IMG/VR virus record: IMGVR_UViG_3300027782_000340
Span: 1 to 25,177 of that record
Length of the DNA stretch: 25,177 nucleotides
Source: a virus
Reading direction: 5' to 3' (one strand)
This document shows, in pieces, positions 3,527 to 16,807 of the stretch. The position numbers and the translations under genes were made by a program. Every line of letters begins with the position of its first letter. Position 1 is the first letter of the stretch. The notes under the pieces were generated by a model. That model was given only the letters and a program-made list of their open reading frames with translations. It did no database searches and was not told the DNA's origin.

Positions 3527-4018
3527 ATGGCAGAACTACTAAATCCATCAGAAATTTTTTCAACAGCTTTTGAACCAAAAGTAAAGAATCGTTTTATTCT
3601 TTACGTTGATGGTCTTCCATCATTCATTATTAAAAAGGTCAATCGTCCTAAGTTAACACAAGCTAAGAAAGAACTTGACCACATGAACATAAAAACTTAC
3701 TACAAAGGTAAGAGTGTTTGGGATGATATCAGTATGGAACTTTATGATCCAATTGTACCATCTGGCGCTCAAGCAGTAATGGAGTGGGTTCGTTTGCATC
3801 ACGAATCAGTTACTGGTCGTGATGGTTATCAAGATTTCTATAAAAAAGATCTTACTATTAACGTTCTTGGCCCCGTCGGCGATAAAGTGGAAGAATGGAC
3901 ACTAAAGGGTGCATTCATCACAAGCGCTGATTTCCAAGAAATGGATTGGAGCGATGATGGTGCCGCTCAAATGATTAGTTTAACAATATCAATCGATTAC
4001 GCAATTCTTCAGTATTAA
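3527..4018 (+). CDS. gp19: Tail tube protein, T4 gp19 family
   Basis: 163 residues, the same length as T4 gp19. These subunits stack as hexameric rings to form the inner tail tube, built up inside the sheath from the baseplate. Supporting features are the N-terminal MAELLNPSEIFSTAFEPKVKN-like opening, the central F-(I/V)-xx-VNRPKL strand (residues 34-42), the WDDISMELYDPIVPSGAQ segment (65-82) and the C-terminal beta strands ending in MISLTISIDYAIL, all typical of the gp19/Hcp tube fold. A Shine-Dalgarno-like AAGG sits 8 nt before the ATG, rare in this window, and all arginine codons I checked are CGT, unlike the AGA-rich tail genes nearby; both fit very high expression. It is followed within 25 nt by a strong terminator, so it is probably transcribed as a short unit. 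The sheath gene gp18, usually just upstream, is not in the window. Confidence 0.93.
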   Translation: MAELLNPSEIFSTAFEPKVKNRFILYVDGLPSFIIKKVNRPKLTQAKKELDHMNIKTYYKGKSVWDDISMELYDPIVPSGAQAVMEWVRLHHESVTGRDGYQDFYKKDLTINVLGPVGDKVEEWTLKGAFITSADFQEMDWSDDGAAQMISLTISIDYAILQY

Positions 4019-4081: not shown

Positions 4082-4978
4082 ATGCAAATGGGCAAGAAAG
4101 TATTCGTCATTTATCCTGGTAGATTTCATCCTTTTCACACAGGTCACAAGGGTGTATATAACTATTTAAGCACCAAATTTGGTGGCAATGACGTATACAT
4201 AACAACCACCGGAGTAGTTGAATTGCCAAAGTCACCTTTTTCATTTGATGAGAAAAAAGAAATGATGATGGCAACTGGTATACCATCCAATAAAATACTA
4301 AATGTCAAAAACAACTATAATCTGCAAAGTGTATCAAGTCAGATACCAATCAATGTAGAACGTGACAGTATTATTTTTGCGGTTAGTCAAAAAGATATGG
4401 CTGAAGATCCAAGATTCAAGAACTTTGTCAAAAAAGATGGATCTCCTTCGTATTTGCAGCCAATGCCAAAAAATGAAAGCAAATTGGAACCAGCAATTAA
4501 ACACGGTTACTTAATTACAGTGCCAACAACAGATTTTACAGTATTAGGATTACCAGCAAGAAGTGCAAGTCAATTAAGATCTCAGTATTCAACACTAAAG
4601 CCCGAACAACAAAAAGCATTTATTGTGGATCTATTTGGTAGTTATAATCCCAAGATACATAAGATATTAAACAACAAATTGGGTAACACCAGTGGTAAAT
4701 TGACAGAAAAGCAAAAGAAGCTATTAAAGAAATTGATTGTGGGTATCTTAAAAGAAGACGAAGATAAAATAAATTCTGCCAAAGAAAAACGAAATGCGGC
4801 TGAAGAGGATCTTCGACAAGCGGAACTTGAAGGCGCAGAAGAAGATTTAAAAAAAGCAAATGATAATTTATCATCGGCTACTACTCCAGAGGAAAAAGAT
4901 GCCGCTGAGGCAAATGTAAAAATAAAGAAGGCTTTGGTGGATAGTAAAAAAATTGCGTTGCAATCAAAACAAGATTAA
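4082..4978 (+). CDS. Cytidylyltransferase-like (HxGH) nucleotidyltransferase with coiled-coil tail
   Basis: 298 residues. Residues 6-170 are a class I nucleotidyltransferase of the cytidylyltransferase/NMN adenylyltransferase superfamily: VIYPGRFHPFHTGH holds the HxGH signature (H19-T20-G21-H22), and LPARSASQLR (157-166) is the ISTRxx-like second site. Such enzymes transfer AMP or CMP onto a phosphorylated substrate with release of pyrophosphate. The substrate cannot be read from sequence. Residues 225-298 are a Glu/Lys/Ala-rich helix, probably a coiled coil for oligomerisation or tethering. The protein lies between tail tube and baseplate genes, so it might be virion-associated or simply expressed late. 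ATG 4082 and ATG 4088 are both possible; I prefer 4082 because its spacing from CTATTTAT matches the other boxed genes. No Shine-Dalgarno sequence. NAD salvage, lipid-head or sugar activation are alternatives. Confidence 0.8.
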   Translation: MQMGKKVFVIYPGRFHPFHTGHKGVYNYLSTKFGGNDVYITTTGVVELPKSPFSFDEKKEMMMATGIPSNKILNVKNNYNLQSVSSQIPINVERDSIIFAVSQKDMAEDPRFKNFVKKDGSPSYLQPMPKNESKLEPAIKHGYLITVPTTDFTVLGLPARSASQLRSQYSTLKPEQQKAFIVDLFGSYNPKIHKILNNKLGNTSGKLTEKQKKLLKKLIVGILKEDEDKINSAKEKRNAAEEDLRQAELEGAEEDLKKANDNLSSATTPEEKDAAEANVKIKKALVDSKKIALQSKQD

Positions 4979-5027: not shown

Positions 5028-5849
5028 ATGAGTGACGAAATTATTATTCAAAAATTAAAACAACAACATTCAGCTGCTCCCACACCTGTAGCTACAAGTT
5101 ATCCATCTGAAACAATTGATTTGCCATCAAAGGGTTATTTTTATGATGAATCTAATCCATTGAGCAAAGGAACCATTGAATTAAAGATGATGACTGCTAG
5201 GGAAGAAGATATTCTGACCAATGAAAATTTCATCAAAAATGGTACCGTATTGGATAAGTTGATGGAAGGTCTAATTGTTACGCCCGGCGTAAGAACTCAA
5301 GACTTGTTAATGATTGATAAAAATTCTTTATTTATCGCTGCTAGACGATTGGCATATGGTGATAAATATGGACCAGTAAAGATTGAATGTAAAAAGTGTA
5401 ATACCGAAAACAAAACTTATATTGATTTAAGCACATTAAATGAAAAAGAAACGGATTTTAGTAAGTTTCAAAAAGGTACCAACGAATTTGAATTTGAGTT
5501 TCCATTCAGCAAGAGACGGATCACGTTTAAACTGATTACGTCAGGTGATCAAGAAAGTATTGATCGTGATATTAAGGCTCTAACCAAGATTAAAAAACAT
5601 TCTAGCACCGAAGTTACTACTAGACTTAAAAAACTGATCGTCAGTATTGATGGAAAGCCTGATATAGCGGCTATTAATAAGTTTGTTGATAATGAGCTAC
5701 TATCAAAGGACAGTATGGCGTTGAGATCTTATGTTAAAACAATTGCGCCTGAATTGGATATGGGTTTTGACTTTGTATGTGAACACTGTGGTGAGGTGGA
5801 AAGGATGGATGTACCTATGACGGTACAGTTTTTTTGGCCTGAGTCCTGA
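5028..5849 (+). CDS. gp26: T4 gp26-like baseplate/tail assembly protein with zinc-type Cys pairs
   Basis: 273 residues in the base frame. Residues 29-65 have the conserved T4 gp26-family opening: IDLPSKGYFYD, then NPLSKG and the MTAREEDILT motif. Two cysteine pairs, C121-x-x-C124 and C251-x-x-C254, would make a four-cysteine metal site. In T4, gp26 acts in assembly of the baseplate hub, and its genes lie just before the tape measure gene, as here. The last codons read TTT TTT TGG then stop at 5847-5849; the seven T residues at 5829-5835 coincide with the point where the +1 frame opens into a further 70 codons with fibre-free, conserved-looking sequence. This suggests two products: 273 residues, and about 339 residues after a +1 shift, as tail assembly chaperones do in other phages. 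The start ATG has no clear Shine-Dalgarno sequence. Family assignment is good, exact hub role is inferred. Confidence 0.8.
   Translation: MSDEIIIQKLKQQHSAAPTPVATSYPSETIDLPSKGYFYDESNPLSKGTIELKMMTAREEDILTNENFIKNGTVLDKLMEGLIVTPGVRTQDLLMIDKNSLFIAARRLAYGDKYGPVKIECKKCNTENKTYIDLSTLNEKETDFSKFQKGTNEFEFEFPFSKRRITFKLITSGDQESIDRDIKALTKIKKHSSTEVTTRLKKLIVSIDGKPDIAAINKFVDNELLSKDSMALRSYVKTIAPELDMGFDFVCEHCGEVERMDVPMTVQFFWPES
5829..5835 (+). other. T7 slippery run, candidate +1 (or -2) programmed frameshift site
   Basis: In the gp26-like frame the codons are CAG TTT TTT TGG. A tRNA-Phe on the second TTT can move +1 onto TTT with full pairing, making the next codon GGC and opening the downstream frame. A single-tRNA -2 slip on the run also reaches that frame. 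A one-base homopolymer error in the assembly would give the same picture. Confidence 0.55.
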
Positions 5850-6048
5850 ATATAAGGTACAAGTTCACAGTCAAATATTTGAATTGAGTTACTTCTCGCA
5901 AGGAGCTGTAAATGTACAAATTGCGTATCAATTACCCGTGTTTTTGCGCAATTTTTATTATGCTCAATTAGCAAATATAAAGAACAAAGAAAGTGATAGT
6001 TACAAAGAACCCACTAAAAAGTCGGGTAAAGTAGACAGGCCTTTTTAG
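5836..6048 (+). CDS. +1-frame extension of the gp26-like protein (no start codon of its own)
   Basis: The frame is open from 5821 to the TAG at 6046-6048 and contains no ATG. Its translation after the T run begins GLSPEYKVQVHSQIFEL and continues with YQLPVFLRNFYYAQLANIKNKE, then a charged tail ending DRPF. The LSPEY...ELSY...QLPVFLRNFYY pattern is well formed and resembles small segments found after gp26-like proteins in related phages. Because this sequence begins inside the end of the gp26-like gene and only CTG (5839) or TTG codons could start it, expression by frameshift from the upstream frame is the simplest reading. The position, immediately before the tape measure gene, matches the gpG/gpGT-type chaperone arrangement of lambda-like and P2-like phages. 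Alternatives are a non-ATG start, translational coupling, or a sequencing indel. Confidence 0.65.
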   Translation, partial: GLSPEYKVQVHSQIFELSYFSQGAVNVQIAYQLPVFLRNFYYAQLANIKNKESDSYKEPTKKSGKVDRPF

Positions 6049-6083: not shown

Positions 6084-9000
6084 ATGGCAGCACAACCATT
6101 TGATGAAAAGGCCGCAGCGGCCTCAAGAGAGTACTTAAAGAACTTAATTGATATAAACTCGGAAATCGGACAAACACTGGGCGATTTACGCAAAATAACT
6201 GTCGCTGAACAGAACAATGTGGATATAGCCAAATCTTTGGGGCAAGTATATAAAACACAACAAGATAAGCTTAATGAACAGTTAAAAGGAAAAAGTCTAC
6301 AAGAACAAATATCATTGAAACTTCAAAATTCCGAATCGGAATTAGAGAAATTATCATCGGCACGTATCAGTAGCCACAAAACATCATTGAAGTTAGGTCA
6401 GGAATTATTTAAATTACATGCTGATCTGGTTAATTTGCAAGGTAGTAATGCTCTGAGCTCAGAGATTGAGGCTAAGATAAAATTAATTGAAGAAACAGAA
6501 ACTCAGTTAAATTTAGAAAAGAAGTTATTAAGCAATAGTGGTTCTCAGTTAGAATCGTTAAAACTATATAATGATACATTAGGTGCGACTTTAAAGATTT
6601 CAAAGGCAATTGGTGCTATAATGAGTGAATTAAACATTCCAACATCTTTTAGTGGTCTGTTAAAACAAACATACGAAAGATTCAAAGAAATCGATAAAGC
6701 TGCAACCGAAGTTCGTCAAACATTTGCGTTATTTAGACAAGACGCCGAATATATAGAGACAAATATTAAAAATATAAGTACAGATCTTGCTAAATTTGGA
6801 GTTACGGCTAAAGATGTGGCATCAACATCAAAATCTATAGGATCCGTATTTAGTTCAATTGATATTGCAAATACATCATTGGTTAGTGATATAACACTGT
6901 TATCCAAACAAATGGGGATTACATCTGATAAAAGTGTTGGTTTTCTTAAAACTATTGGTGGAATTAGCGGTCAGAGTGCAGTTGCTAGTAAAAATATGTT
7001 GAGCCTAGCTGGTGCTTCAGCAAAAGCTTATGGTGTTGGATTAGATGATGTGATGAACGACGTTGCAACCGCATCCGACGCGTCTAGAATGTTTGCTGGT
7101 AAAAACGCAGATGAACTGGTTAGAGCTGCAGCTCAAGCTAGACAGATGGGTACTACTCTTGATAATATGGCAAATACCGCAAAAGGTTTGCTTGATTTTG
7201 AAAGTAGTATTCAATCGGAATTAAAAGCTAGTGCATTAATTGGTAAAAATATTAACTTCAATGAAGCTCGTAGATTGGCATTTAATAAGGATACTATTGG
7301 GGCAAATAAATTAATATTGGAACAAGCTAAGAAAATTAAGTTCAATCAGTTAAATCCAATTGCACAAGAGGCATTTGCAAAAGCAGCTGGTAAGAGTGTG
7401 AAAGAATTGCAGGATATGTTGGAGGCAGAAACTCGTATAAAAGACGCACTGAACTCACAGGATCCTGTTGTTAGAAAAATAGCACAAGAAAGATTAAAAG
7501 AACAAAATTTATTGAAAACTAATAGTAAATTAGCTCAACAAAAATTTGAACAAGATTTGAAAACTAAAGCGAACCAAGAAAGATTGGCTATAGTACAAAA
7601 TAAAATAAATGATGCGTTACAAAAATTAATGTTGCCTGTTTTAGAACTCATTTCTAAAACGATGGATGGTATTGTATATATTTTTGAAAAGTTTAATCCT
7701 GAGGAATTAATAGGCCCTTTAATACGAATAAAATTGATGTTTACATCGGTTGGTACCGCGCTTCGTGAATCTTTATTGTTTCCACTTAGAGTTGCAAGTG
7801 GATATCTATCTAAGTTAGGAGATGTTGGGTGGATTAAAAATTTGTTATCGCCGATAACAATGTTGATAGAAAAAGTAAAAATTTTTATAGGAAACTTTCA
7901 GTATGCCAGATCGTTAGGCGCAAATTTTGCGCAGTCTTTTTTATCGGCTGGAAATGCGGTTGGTGGGATTTTTTCAAAAATAGGAAAACTTTTGGCCGGA
8001 ATGCCAATTGATTTTGTAATATCCAAATTTAATATTTTTAAAACATTTGTATCATCAATATTTAATGCTTTAAAAACACTCGTTTCATCAATATTTTCAC
8101 CTATTACAAACGCAATTAAACCGATAATAGGTGCGTTTAAATCTGTTGGAGAAGGATCTAAATTTTTAAAACCTTTACTAGGCTTTTTAAAAATCGGAAA
8201 ACTTGGTTTAACAGCTGTTCCTATTTTGGGTGAAATAATAATGGCTATAGAATTTATATATAATGCGTGGAAAAGAATTAGTGTAATATTTAATGATCCA
8301 AATTTAAACATTGGACAAAAAATATTTGCATCTGTTGTTGGGCTTTATGGTGCTTTGTATGATACATTAATACAACCATTTATTGATATTGGCGAATGGA
8401 TTATAAAAGCCGTTTGGGGAGAAGATATTTTGAAAGGTATAAAGGCAACAGTAAATGATATATATACTATACTCAAATCTCCATTTGAAAAGGCATATAA
8501 TTGGATAATGGATCTATTGGGCGGTAAATCTCCATCAAAAATTGGTTTAGCAATCGTCGATGGTATAGAATCTGTAGTAGATATGTTATTTGATGTACTT
8601 ACATATCCATTTGAAAAAGCATCTAAAATTATACCTGGTATTATTAATATTTTAAAAATAATATTTGTTGACGCTTTTAAATCAGTTGTAGATATAATAT
8701 TTGATTTGATTACGTATCCGTTTAAAAAAGCCGCTCAAATTATACCAGAGATTATTAATATTTTAAAAACAACATTTGTTGAGGCTTTTAAATCGGTGGT
8801 GGATATAATGTTTGATTTGATTGCAGAGCCATTTAGAAAAGCATTTCAACTAATAAAGTCTGCTGTGGCCGAAGTTGGATCTGTTCTAAAAGATACATTC
8901 AGTGGGGCTTTTACATTTATTATTAATGCACTTGAAAAAGTGTTGGAGAAGTTAAAGGGTGTGGGTGGATTTATAACTGACTTAGTAGGAAAAGGATTTA

Positions 9001-9284
9001 GTTTTGTTGGCAAAATACTTGGTGTTACTGATGAACCTACTAATGAACCTACTGGTAAATCTGCGAAAGTTGATGAAAAATATAAAGGACAAGGTTTACA
9101 AACCGATTCTATTATTAATGCAATTGTAAGTTCCAACAAAGCGGTGGTTGAAAAACTAGATAAACTAACATCGATGATGGCATCTGGTCAAATTGCTGTA
9201 TATATAGATGGACAACGTGCAAATCAACTATTGGCAACAAGTAATTCAAAATTTGGTTCATTTGGTCAAGCAACAACCAATTAA
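6084..9284 (+). CDS. Tape measure protein (T4 gp29 functional equivalent)
   Basis: 1066 residues, the longest gene in the window. Residues 1-200 are Lys/Glu/Leu-rich and predicted by eye to be long helices or coiled coil. The middle (about 270-470) is Ala/Gly/Ser-rich helical sequence of the type seen in phage tape measures. Residues 580-960 hold hydrophobic stretches such as those around 660-740 that could act as membrane-interacting segments on DNA delivery, and three tandem 37-residue repeats at 830-940. The C-terminus (about 1020-1066) has IAVYIDGQRANQLL, a common tape measure ending. The protein sets tail length during tube polymerisation and is released ahead of DNA. By the usual rule of roughly 1.5 angstrom per residue the tail could be longer than T4's, whose gp29 is about 590 residues. 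Gene order (gp26-like, tape measure, gp48/54-like) matches T4. ATG is preceded by ATATTTAT and no Shine-Dalgarno sequence. Confidence 0.88.
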   Translation: MAAQPFDEKAAAASREYLKNLIDINSEIGQTLGDLRKITVAEQNNVDIAKSLGQVYKTQQDKLNEQLKGKSLQEQISLKLQNSESELEKLSSARISSHKTSLKLGQELFKLHADLVNLQGSNALSSEIEAKIKLIEETETQLNLEKKLLSNSGSQLESLKLYNDTLGATLKISKAIGAIMSELNIPTSFSGLLKQTYERFKEIDKAATEVRQTFALFRQDAEYIETNIKNISTDLAKFGVTAKDVASTSKSIGSVFSSIDIANTSLVSDITLLSKQMGITSDKSVGFLKTIGGISGQSAVASKNMLSLAGASAKAYGVGLDDVMNDVATASDASRMFAGKNADELVRAAAQARQMGTTLDNMANTAKGLLDFESSIQSELKASALIGKNINFNEARRLAFNKDTIGANKLILEQAKKIKFNQLNPIAQEAFAKAAGKSVKELQDMLEAETRIKDALNSQDPVVRKIAQERLKEQNLLKTNSKLAQQKFEQDLKTKANQERLAIVQNKINDALQKLMLPVLELISKTMDGIVYIFEKFNPEELIGPLIRIKLMFTSVGTALRESLLFPLRVASGYLSKLGDVGWIKNLLSPITMLIEKVKIFIGNFQYARSLGANFAQSFLSAGNAVGGIFSKIGKLLAGMPIDFVISKFNIFKTFVSSIFNALKTLVSSIFSPITNAIKPIIGAFKSVGEGSKFLKPLLGFLKIGKLGLTAVPILGEIIMAIEFIYNAWKRISVIFNDPNLNIGQKIFASVVGLYGALYDTLIQPFIDIGEWIIKAVWGEDILKGIKATVNDIYTILKSPFEKAYNWIMDLLGGKSPSKIGLAIVDGIESVVDMLFDVLTYPFEKASKIIPGIINILKIIFVDAFKSVVDIIFDLITYPFKKAAQIIPEIINILKTTFVEAFKSVVDIMFDLIAEPFRKAFQLIKSAVAEVGSVLKDTFSGAFTFIINALEKVLEKLKGVGGFITDLVGKGFSFVGKILGVTDEPTNEPTGKSAKVDEKYKGQGLQTDSIINAIVSSNKAVVEKLDKLTSMMASGQIAVYIDGQRANQLLATSNSKFGSFGQATTN
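8571..8903 (+). repeat. Three tandem 111-bp (37-residue) repeats in tape measure gene
   Basis: Units at 8571-8681, 8682-8792 and 8793-8903. Each starts SVVD(M/I)(L/I/M)FD(V/L)(L/I) and contains PF(E/K/R)KA; units 1 and 2 also share IIP(G/E)IINILK and FV(D/E)AFK. Unit 3 diverges in its second half. The periodicity is likely structural and a means to change tail length. Confidence 0.9.
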
Positions 9285-15508: not shown

Positions 15509-16807
15509 GTGGAGTATTCATCTAAAATTTATTTAAAATTAATTACAAAACACGATAATTATCATAACGCTTGTAATGATATTATTGCTGCTTTCATCTT
15601 TAATTTTAAAGATGGTACTAAACAATATTTAAATTTTGAACATAACGATTTACCTATAGATTGTACATTTAAAGAGTTTAAATCTGAGATTGAATCGCAA
15701 AATTTAATCGTGTATGTCAATAATAAAAAGACATACAAGTACTGGTTAAATTGCAATTTGATAGATGTTAATTTGTTTGGATTCATCGACAGCAATGAAA
15801 TATTAGATGAAGTAGAGTGTTTGACTGAGAACTTTCTGAAATACAATTATCGTAATATCAATAACTTTAATTTGATATTACCATATGTTATACATCAACG
15901 AATATTTGACGTTGAGATAAAGCAAATTGAGACGTTGGGCGATAAAGACATAGATAATTATTGTTTTAAGTTTTTTAATAACGTTATATCTGACACTTTG
16001 TTTGAGGTGGAAAAAAATGGATTAAAAGTTGATACAGACGTATTTTCAAAATACTTTAAAAGTAAAACATATAACAAATTCATATACACAAACTACAATA
16101 TCTACAATCCTACTGGTAGACCAAGTAATGCATATGATAATATTAATTATGTAGCGCTCAAAAAAGATGATGGGTCCAGAGCTAGTTTTGTGTCTAGGTA
16201 TGGAGAATCCGGCCATTTAATGATGGTAGATTTTACCGGATTTCATCCGTATATTGTGGCTAATTTGATTGATTATAAAGTTCCTGATAAGGAAACGATA
16301 TATGAACATTTAGCCAAATATTATTTTGATGTTGACACAGTAACATCTGAAGATATAGCTAAATCAAAGAAATTGACGATGGTTAATCTATATGGACAAA
16401 TTTCACAACAGTACTGTAACATTCCGTATTTCGCAAAGGTAAACGAATTAAAGGATAAGTACTGGCAAAAATTTGAAAAGAATGGATATATAACAACTCC
16501 AGTATACAAACGTAAAATTACAAATAAGCACATTGTTGATCCCAACAGAAATAAATTGTTTTCTTATATAATTCAAGCTGCTGAGACTGAATATGGAATT
16601 GATAGTCTGAGTAAGTGTATTAAGTTTGTTAGTGATAAGAGAATTGTACCCATACTATACGTGTATGACTCAATTGTATTTGATGTACACAATGACACAA
16701 ATAAACAAGAATTAATTGATTTGGTTGATATTATCAAAAACAAACGATTTAAAGTAAAAACCTATATTGGAAATAATTACAATGATTTGAAATTAGTCCA
16801 AATGTAA
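15509..16807 (+). CDS. Divergent family-A DNA polymerase-like protein
   Basis: 432 residues; the start is GTG because an in-frame TAA lies at 15503-15505 and no upstream ATG exists. Family-A motifs are visible in order. PTGRPSNAYDNINY (201-214) matches the TGR-xS-xx-(P)N-xQN segment. Motif A is MMVDFTGFHP with D241. Motif B is K287-K288 ... Y295-G296 (the K-x7-YG spacing). An RNKLFSYIIQAAETE helix (347-361) matches the NR-xx-Q-xxAAD region. Motif C is YVYDSIVFDV with D387. Both catalytic aspartates remain, but motif A has His at the usual Glu position, motif B lacks the upstream Arg, and motif C is YDS instead of HDE. The first 150 residues have no convincing 3'-5' exonuclease motif. T4-like phages normally replicate with family-B gp43, so this may be a second specialised polymerase or an inactive relative. 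It sits alone between tail and replication genes. Confidence 0.75.
   Translation: MEYSSKIYLKLITKHDNYHNACNDIIAAFIFNFKDGTKQYLNFEHNDLPIDCTFKEFKSEIESQNLIVYVNNKKTYKYWLNCNLIDVNLFGFIDSNEILDEVECLTENFLKYNYRNINNFNLILPYVIHQRIFDVEIKQIETLGDKDIDNYCFKFFNNVISDTLFEVEKNGLKVDTDVFSKYFKSKTYNKFIYTNYNIYNPTGRPSNAYDNINYVALKKDDGSRASFVSRYGESGHLMMVDFTGFHPYIVANLIDYKVPDKETIYEHLAKYYFDVDTVTSEDIAKSKKLTMVNLYGQISQQYCNIPYFAKVNELKDKYWQKFEKNGYITTPVYKRKITNKHIVDPNRNKLFSYIIQAAETEYGIDSLSKCIKFVSDKRIVPILYVYDSIVFDVHNDTNKQELIDLVDIIKNKRFKVKTYIGNNYNDLKLVQM

Follow-up and report, generated by a model that had tools for sequence, protein, structure and literature searches.

Gene Organization of the gp26-like Locus

The window, by which we mean the whole 25,177-nucleotide stretch of virus record IMGVR_UViG_3300027782_000340 that was analyzed, comes from a T4-like phage. 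The genes around the locus are arranged in the order tail tube, one ORF, gp26-like ORF with its extension, and tape measure (Table 1), and the layout was of the G/GT type, with a short ORF and an overlapping start-less ORF between the tail tube and tape measure genes. The 3' end of the gp26-like ORF read CAG TTT TTT TGG CCT GAG TCC TGA (stop codon TGA at 5847–5849), giving the short product the C-terminus FFWPES, and the +1 frame was open from 5821 to 6048 without any ATG. The product joined across the two frames had 339 residues. Re-reading of the sequence confirmed what the first-pass annotation had given for the stop of the gp26-like ORF, the T-run, the open +1 frame, and the joined product. 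The ORF between the tail tube and gp26-like genes had a charged C-terminal half, and no such gene is annotated at this place in Microcystis phage Mel-JY01 or Flavobacterium phage immuto.

Table 1. Features of the gp26-like locus in the window, and examples of extensions matching phrog_634 at other loci
Feature	Record or locus	Position	Strand	Remarks
Tail tube gene (gp19-like), upstream	window	3527..4018	+	phrog_4542, 4.2e-27
CTP_transf_like (nucleotidyltransferase-like) ORF between tail tube and gp26	window	4082-4978		PF01467, 5.8e-5
gp26-like short chaperone ORF (TAC-N)	window	5028..5849	+	273 aa, zero frame, PF12322/phrog_150
Slippery run TTTTTTT	window	5829..5835	+	from sequence; re-pairing of P-site codon 5832-5834 possible at 5833-5835
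Zero-frame tail of short form, TGG CCT GAG TCC TGA	window	5835..5849	+	
+1-frame extension (TAC-C)	window	5836..6048	+	70 codons and stop, without ATG start
Tape measure protein gene, directly downstream	window	6084..9284	+	phrog_58, 6.7e-26
Extension, phrog_634 example	L134	1718-1891		
Extension, phrog_634 example	L135	1691-1864		
Extension, phrog_634 example	L136	1867-2004		
Extension, phrog_634 example	L137	1613-1780		
Extension, phrog_634 example	L138	1831-1992		

The gp26-like protein matched PF12322 with an E-value of 1.3e-11 (45.1 bits; cut-off 24.5) over residues 45–270 on profile positions 9–219, and phrog_150 with 3.8e-14. The AlphaFold model of this ORF had a pLDDT of 87 and a pTM of 0.80. 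When the top solved chains were realigned to the model, 3fgx, 3klu (YqbN), and 2ob9 gave Z scores of 5.8, 5.4, and 5.0, respectively; 2ob9, the HK97 tail assembly chaperone, aligned over 97 residues with an rmsd of 4.0, and we take 3fgx and 3klu to be XkdN-like chaperones. All Z scores were under 8 and short of the reliable range, and the likeness of the predicted structure to the chaperone fold was at most suggestive. A Foldseek search of the PDB with the model gave nothing at an E-value of 0.001 or lower (values were above 1), and a search of BFVD gave 59 matches, of which the named ones near the top were mostly baseplate hub proteins. Searches by sequence gave no convincing solved relative, the best E-value being 0.1 in one search and 0.0025 (MtrB) in another.

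Conservation of the +1-Frame Extension

In a first scan, the 273-residue protein was compared with viral contigs; the best 80 of 88 relatives were kept, and they provided 79 loci. L080, whose contig ended before the gp26 stop, and the incomplete L148 were excluded from all counts. Among these best 80 of 88 relatives, the +1 frame was open past the site in 78 of the 78 loci whose contig includes the gp26 stop, the gp26 frame stopped 1–4 codons past the FFWP motif in all 78, and the extension was 65–83 codons long (those of L004 and L061 end at the contig edge); the window likewise had the open +1 frame and the early stop. From 57 distinct proteins, L004 and L061 were dropped for length, and the remaining 55 were reduced to 25 representatives under 90% identity. 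Within the 1774 extension codons of the representatives there were 208 stops in the zero frame and 93 in the -1 frame; the +1 frame was stop-free by construction in this count, and the evidence there was its constant length. The first 20 extension codons contained no ATG in 51 of the 57 distinct proteins. The positions H..IF.L and Y.LP..LR.FY were recognizable across the 25 representatives, and Rhodothermus phage RM378 aligned poorly. The dN/dS ratio of the extension was 0.30 for the window and L030 and 0.11 for L044 and L046, with a median of 0.39 over 85 pairs, many of which were near saturation. Judged from these codon comparisons, the extension is under purifying selection.

The same split was present in two isolate genomes, those of Mel-JY01 (where the run has seven T) and immuto (with FLWP in immuto), and open +1 frames followed similar sites in Streptococcus phage GXN1, Listeria phage LIS04, and RM378. 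With GXN1 as the query one distant viral contig was matched, and with RM378 no genome was matched but its own. A second scan, using a 13-sequence alignment as the query, found at least 590 loci, of which the best 80 were kept. These 80, the window, the 78 first-scan loci, Mel-JY01, immuto, and RM378 made up 162 loci, in which some contigs occur twice (for example L071/L251); the loci and their sites are not independent samples, and kinship inflates the counts.

The extension and join were aligned with those of the relatives, as the first-pass annotation had advised. By extension profile the best frame was +1 in 160 of the 162 loci and -1 in L294, and RM378, which has a slip site, scored at noise level in every frame; as members of these loci had gone into building the profile, the count describes the frame of a shared domain and is not an independent discovery. 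One continuous frame in relatives, which the annotation had named as contrary evidence, did not appear, the zero frame being the best for the extension in 0 of 162 loci. Classification by the longest frame had placed five loci in -1; the profile moved four of them (L242, L248, L291, and L296) to +1 and kept L294.

Sequence and Context of the Putative Slip Site

The site TTTTTTTGG was found at 126 and TTTTTTTAC at 25 of the 162 homologous loci, the second-scan part of which is the best 80 of at least 590. Sites with a broken run, TTCTTTTGG (4 of 162), TTTCTTTGG (2 of 162), and TTCTTTTAC (1 of 162), kept the YTT-then-T pattern and lost the long homopolymer. Three sites, TTTTTTTAT, TTTTTTTTC, and CTTTTTTGG, occurred at a single locus each, and one, TTC TTC TGG of L294, was unmatched. 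A run of at least seven T was present at 153 of the 162 sites (126 + 25 + 1 + 1). At 160 of 160 +1 sites a T comes directly after the P-site codon, which is TTT or CTT, and the P-site tRNA can therefore re-pair one base forward at each of them.

For site statistics L294 was left out and RM378 kept, and the 161 sites were reduced to 69 non-redundant ones under 85% identity. The base before the run was C at 40, G at 25, A at 4, and T at 0 of the 69 sites (C or G at 65), and T was found there at 0 of 161, whereas the base before the other Phe codons of the same genes was A 348, T 119, G 108, and C 58 times (A or T at 467 of 633). The absence of T before the run fits avoidance of the -1 heptamer T_TTT_TTY. 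Where the codon before the run encoded Gln, it was CAG in 12 of 12 cases, compared with 85 of 453 elsewhere. The codon at 5826–5828 and its homologues had G or C as the last base at 65 of 69 sites, with A depleted. The A-site codon was followed by CCT at 67 of the 69 sites, and the Pro codon after TGG was CCT in 24 of 24 representatives, whereas elsewhere CCT made up 105 of 290 Pro codons; such retention is as expected if the C and T of this codon double as the start of the Leu codon in the +1 frame. The A-site TGG is a sense codon and not notably rare, with 78 TGG, or 9.7 per thousand codons, in the ORFs of the window.

The window did not have the canonical -1 heptamer (X_XXY_YYZ), as it reads G_TTT_TTT and its extension lies in +1. 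In L294, ACA AAT TTC gives the heptamer A_AAT_TTC and the extension is in -1, which makes it the sole such member of the +1 group; this lineage may have changed to -1, or the sequence may carry a single-base error.

Relatives with the Extension in the -1 Frame

We searched 19 phage records with phrog_150, which matched 18, and phrog_634, which matched 9 (E up to 0.1); S-TIM5 matched neither. The extension was in the overlapping -1 frame in S-PM2, P-SSM2, Syn9, HTVC008M, phiM12, and KVP40, and in the five records whose annotation was read (S-PM2, P-SSM2, HTVC008M, phiM12, and KVP40) it stands as a short gene of its own, named 'baseplate hub assembly catalyst'. The same Phe-Phe position in these -1 relatives reads T_TTT_TTC or T_TTT_TTT, as it does in Atu_ph07, GAP32, and PA5oct. 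Two scans (the second giving the best 80 of at least 594) provided 90 -1 loci with a readable end, L148 being left out, and these were reduced to 46 under 85% identity. Within this sample, again with the best 80 of at least 594 from the second scan, the longest continuation was in -1 with a heptamer at 90 of 90 loci, and the heptamer was TTTTTTC at 81 and TTTTTTT at 9. Extension profiles were made from 102 and 91 rows, which were brought down to 78 and 36, respectively, and hhalign aligned the +1-extension profile with the kyanophage -1-frame extension at a local probability of 92.6 (E = 4.5e-7) and a global one of 84.8. PHROG 634, a family named 'baseplate hub assembly catalyst', apparently contains the -1-frame gp26 extension of kyanophages and their relatives. 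In LR756511 (L115), an extension-like ORF in the -1 frame has its own ATG and overlaps the gp26 stop, perhaps representing separate initiation.

The two groups differed in the elements around the site. In the +1 group, strong Shine-Dalgarno (SD)-like pairing (-5 kcal/mol or lower) was found at 12 of 69 sites, which is background when compared with 16% in the null, and the mean pairing over the 69 sites was slightly lower than that of the null (-3.49 vs -2.33 kcal/mol; null SD 2.33). No consistent downstream structure was found in this group, the mean z being -0.65 (14 of 69 below -2) and -0.74 (11 of 68 below -2), and in the 25 representatives the mean z over four intervals ranged from -0.02 to -1.22 (including -0.54). 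At the 46 non-redundant -1 sites of the kyanophage/Pelagibacter type, SD-like pairing had a mean of -8.0 kcal/mol, compared with -2.4 elsewhere in the same genes, and reached -5 or lower at 39 of 46 sites against 16%; the downstream structure had a mean z of -2.25, with 26 of 46 below -2. The Glu of the Glu-Gly motif in the -1 set was encoded by GAG in 36 of 44 cases compared with 308 of 987 elsewhere, and this excess indicated that the SD-like stretch of the -1 set is selected beyond the protein. A small inverted repeat, GTACC/GGTAC, seen by eye just 5' of the run was set aside as a candidate element, as it differs in other lineages and would sit inside the ribosome.

Taken together, kyanophages, Pelagibacter phages, Sinorhizobium phage phiM12, and KVP40 resemble the group of the window in the slip at the same Phe-Phe codons and in a homologous extension. 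The kyanophage/Pelagibacter type has a -1 shift on T_TTT_TTY with an SD-like stretch and structure, whereas the group of the window has neither the heptamer nor the SD and shows little structure. Tentatively, and as a reading that we consider plausible though somewhat short of probable, the T4-like superfamily may have switched the direction of an old chaperone frameshift at the same two Phe codons, between a -1 cassette consisting of T_TTT_TTY with an SD before it and structure after it, and a +1 site (a non-T base and then YTT_T, with a sense codon in the A site) with a candidate stimulator such as a nascent-peptide or U-run effect. The +1 side would be a large group, mostly of uncultured phages.

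Relationship to T4 gp26 and gp51

T4 gp26 and gp51 both matched PF12322, and the window's protein is homologous to T4 gp26. On the 282 positions of phrog_150, gp26 covered 14–235 and gp51 13–280; gp51 thus covered the family profile further toward its C-terminal end. The -1 extension profile matched the C-termini of the gp51 proteins of T4 and RB43 (gp51 209–245; i-E 5.4e-7 in a 3-sequence set), and the +1-extension profile gave no direct match to T4 gp51. The longer profile coverage of gp51 and its match to the -1 extension suggested that gp51 corresponds to the long form and gp26 to the short one, encoded by two genes. Vladimirov, Gautam and Davidson 2022 (Virology 566:9) reportedly paired T4 gp26/gp51 as short and long tail assembly chaperones, and are said to have described frameshifting as retained in several T4-like groups. 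The statement of the first-pass annotation that T4 itself is not known for such a pair is therefore out of date, T4 gp26 and gp51 both belonging to PF12322/phrog_150.

In a midpoint-rooted tree of 70 gp26 rows, with long branches for RM378 and the T4/RB43 rows, the gp26/gp51 proteins of T4 and RB43 grouped together (98/94), with KVP40 and the kyanophage-type -1 phages as their neighbors (100/99). All 44 +1 rows fell together with L294 nested among them, and the jumbo -1 phages GAP32, Atu_ph07, and PA5oct adjoined them. The labels of the 44 +1 rows required 2 changes and those of the 22 -1 rows 3, compared with means of 21.3 and 19.1, respectively, after shuffling (0 of 500 as low). The fork joining LR756508 with the relatives of the window was firm (98/92), and those taking in GXN1, LIS04, and RM378 were weak (88/48, 85/70).

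Proposed Mechanism and Alternative Explanations

The gene at 5028–6048 very probably encodes a tail assembly chaperone pair, consisting of a short gp26 and a long gp26-extension protein made by +1 frameshifting. This was the proposal of the first-pass annotation, a programmed +1 frameshift giving a chaperone pair like lambda G/GT, and it is the reading best supported by the conserved +1 extension, the purifying selection, the conserved site, the neighboring tail genes, and the homology to T4 gp26. Most ribosomes would stop at 5849 and produce the 273-residue short form. In a minority, the second TTT of CAG TTT TTT TGG would be in the P site, paired with tRNA-Phe, when the ribosome slips +1 on the T-run; the slipped ribosome would read GGC, not TGG, and produce the 339-residue long form, whose C-terminal part is the conserved extension. 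If the two forms work as lambda G and GT do, the part common to both would be expected to cover the tape measure protein, and the extension would bring in subunits of the tail tube.

The first-pass annotation had allowed a shift of +1 (or -2), and the seven T permit both kinds of re-pairing. A -2 ribosomal shift on the T-run, of the kind described for phage Mu in PMC5009743, would add one Phe; the TTT CTT and CTT TTT sites and the window's own run did not discriminate between the two directions. However, at TTC TTT TGG (4 loci), TTC TTT TAC (1 locus), and TTC TTT CGT of GXN1, -2 would set tRNA-Phe on TCT, whereas +1 would set it on TTT or TTC, so that +1 re-pairs cleanly and -2 does not; -2 is thus disfavored at 5 of 160 +1 sites (TTCTTTTGG, TTCTTTTAC) and at TTCTTTCGT of GXN1. 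From these homologous sites, a -2 shift is improbable as the general explanation, and also unlikely as a route for the seven T of the window. Still less probable is slippage of RNA polymerase on the T-run, by which some mRNAs would have six U (or nine) and the fusion would be translated from edited transcripts: the predominance of runs of at least seven T is in its favor, but the +1 layout is unchanged at sites where the run is only three or four T long. The ribosomal +1 shift is the best reading because broken runs misplace tRNA-Phe after -2 and short runs leave little room for RNA polymerase to slip.

That the extension is a separate small protein, with a non-ATG start coupled to the gp26 stop, is comparably improbable. 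GTG, TTG, or ATG codons occur inside many extensions, and the ORF of LR756511 with its own ATG over the gp26 stop would agree with such initiation, but no start codon was conserved in position, conservation of the +1 frame started right at the slip codon, where the residues are mostly Gly-Leu or Thr-Leu, and the exclusive use of CCT after TGG in the representatives speaks against it as well. The other proposal of the first-pass annotation, that a homopolymer indel in the assembly had split one continuous gene, agrees with the position of the join on a T-run; it was excluded for practical purposes by the same split in each of the 78 viral contigs drawn from the best 80 of 88 relatives and in the Microcystis and Flavobacterium phage isolate genomes, and by the lack, among the 162 loci, of any with the zero frame best for the extension.

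Comparison with Known Frameshifting Systems

The slip site of lambda G/GT is GGGAAAG. At the +1 site of RF2 (prfB), the P-site codon YUU is followed by U and the tRNA re-pairs one base forward. The 160 +1 sites share this YUU-then-U arrangement; they differ from prfB in that the A site holds a sense codon (TGG, TAC, TAT, or TTC) without an adjacent SD, and in the window the zero-frame stop comes after four sense codons. Lambda resembles the window in making a short and a long chaperone by frameshifting and differs in direction, being -1 where the window is +1; in lambda, a low-level -1 frameshift gives gpG and gpGT, which act with the tape measure protein (PMC5009743). The same paper describes chaperone frameshifting in tailed phages as -1, -2, or +1 depending on the phage, gives an archaeal myovirus as a probable example of +1, and states that such frameshifting is not found in T4. 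Published accounts describe some T4-like phages as having a short gene plus a longer fusion gene in place of frameshifting (PMC10885494), gp26 and gp51 as hub assembly chaperones (PMC3004832), and the gp51 of cyanophages as reaching just some 20% of the normal length and resembling the C-terminal region (PMC3037559). The T4-like gp26/gp51 type is like the window in its protein family, in having a short and a long form, and in the poly-T signals of some T4-like groups; those signals are described as -1 in PMC12846349, whereas the group of the window shifts +1 in another site context without SD, and T4 has two genes.

Chaperone frameshift pairs and the T4-like gp26/gp51 type were thus known already, and what appears to be new is that the same Phe-Phe codons would serve a -1 shift in some phages and a +1 shift in others, with different site contexts. 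Our literature search, which covered the papers in part, found no account of a +1 site in the gp26 family. Where annotations of T4-like phages overlook the extension or name it as a separate 'gp51 baseplate hub assembly catalyst', the result corrects them, and it offers a natural experiment on the direction of frameshifting, as homologous genes would use the same codons for a shift to -1 or to +1, with or without known stimulators. If the +1 shift is efficient without SD, stop codon, or structure, it would represent a recoding signal for which the same partial search found no description.

Other Features of the Window

No tRNA genes were found within the window. A GTG-start ORF at 15509–16807 had no Pfam match at an E-value of 0.01; by eye, it contains stretches that we presume to resemble the palm and O-helix of family A DNA polymerases, making it a candidate. 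At 1672–2139, near the fibre-like gene, there is a member of another family also named tail assembly chaperone (Phage_tail_APC, PF16778, 8.8e-14). The fibre-like ORF itself, at 1–1029, carries long Thr-Ser-Gly/Ser-Ser-Gly repeats.
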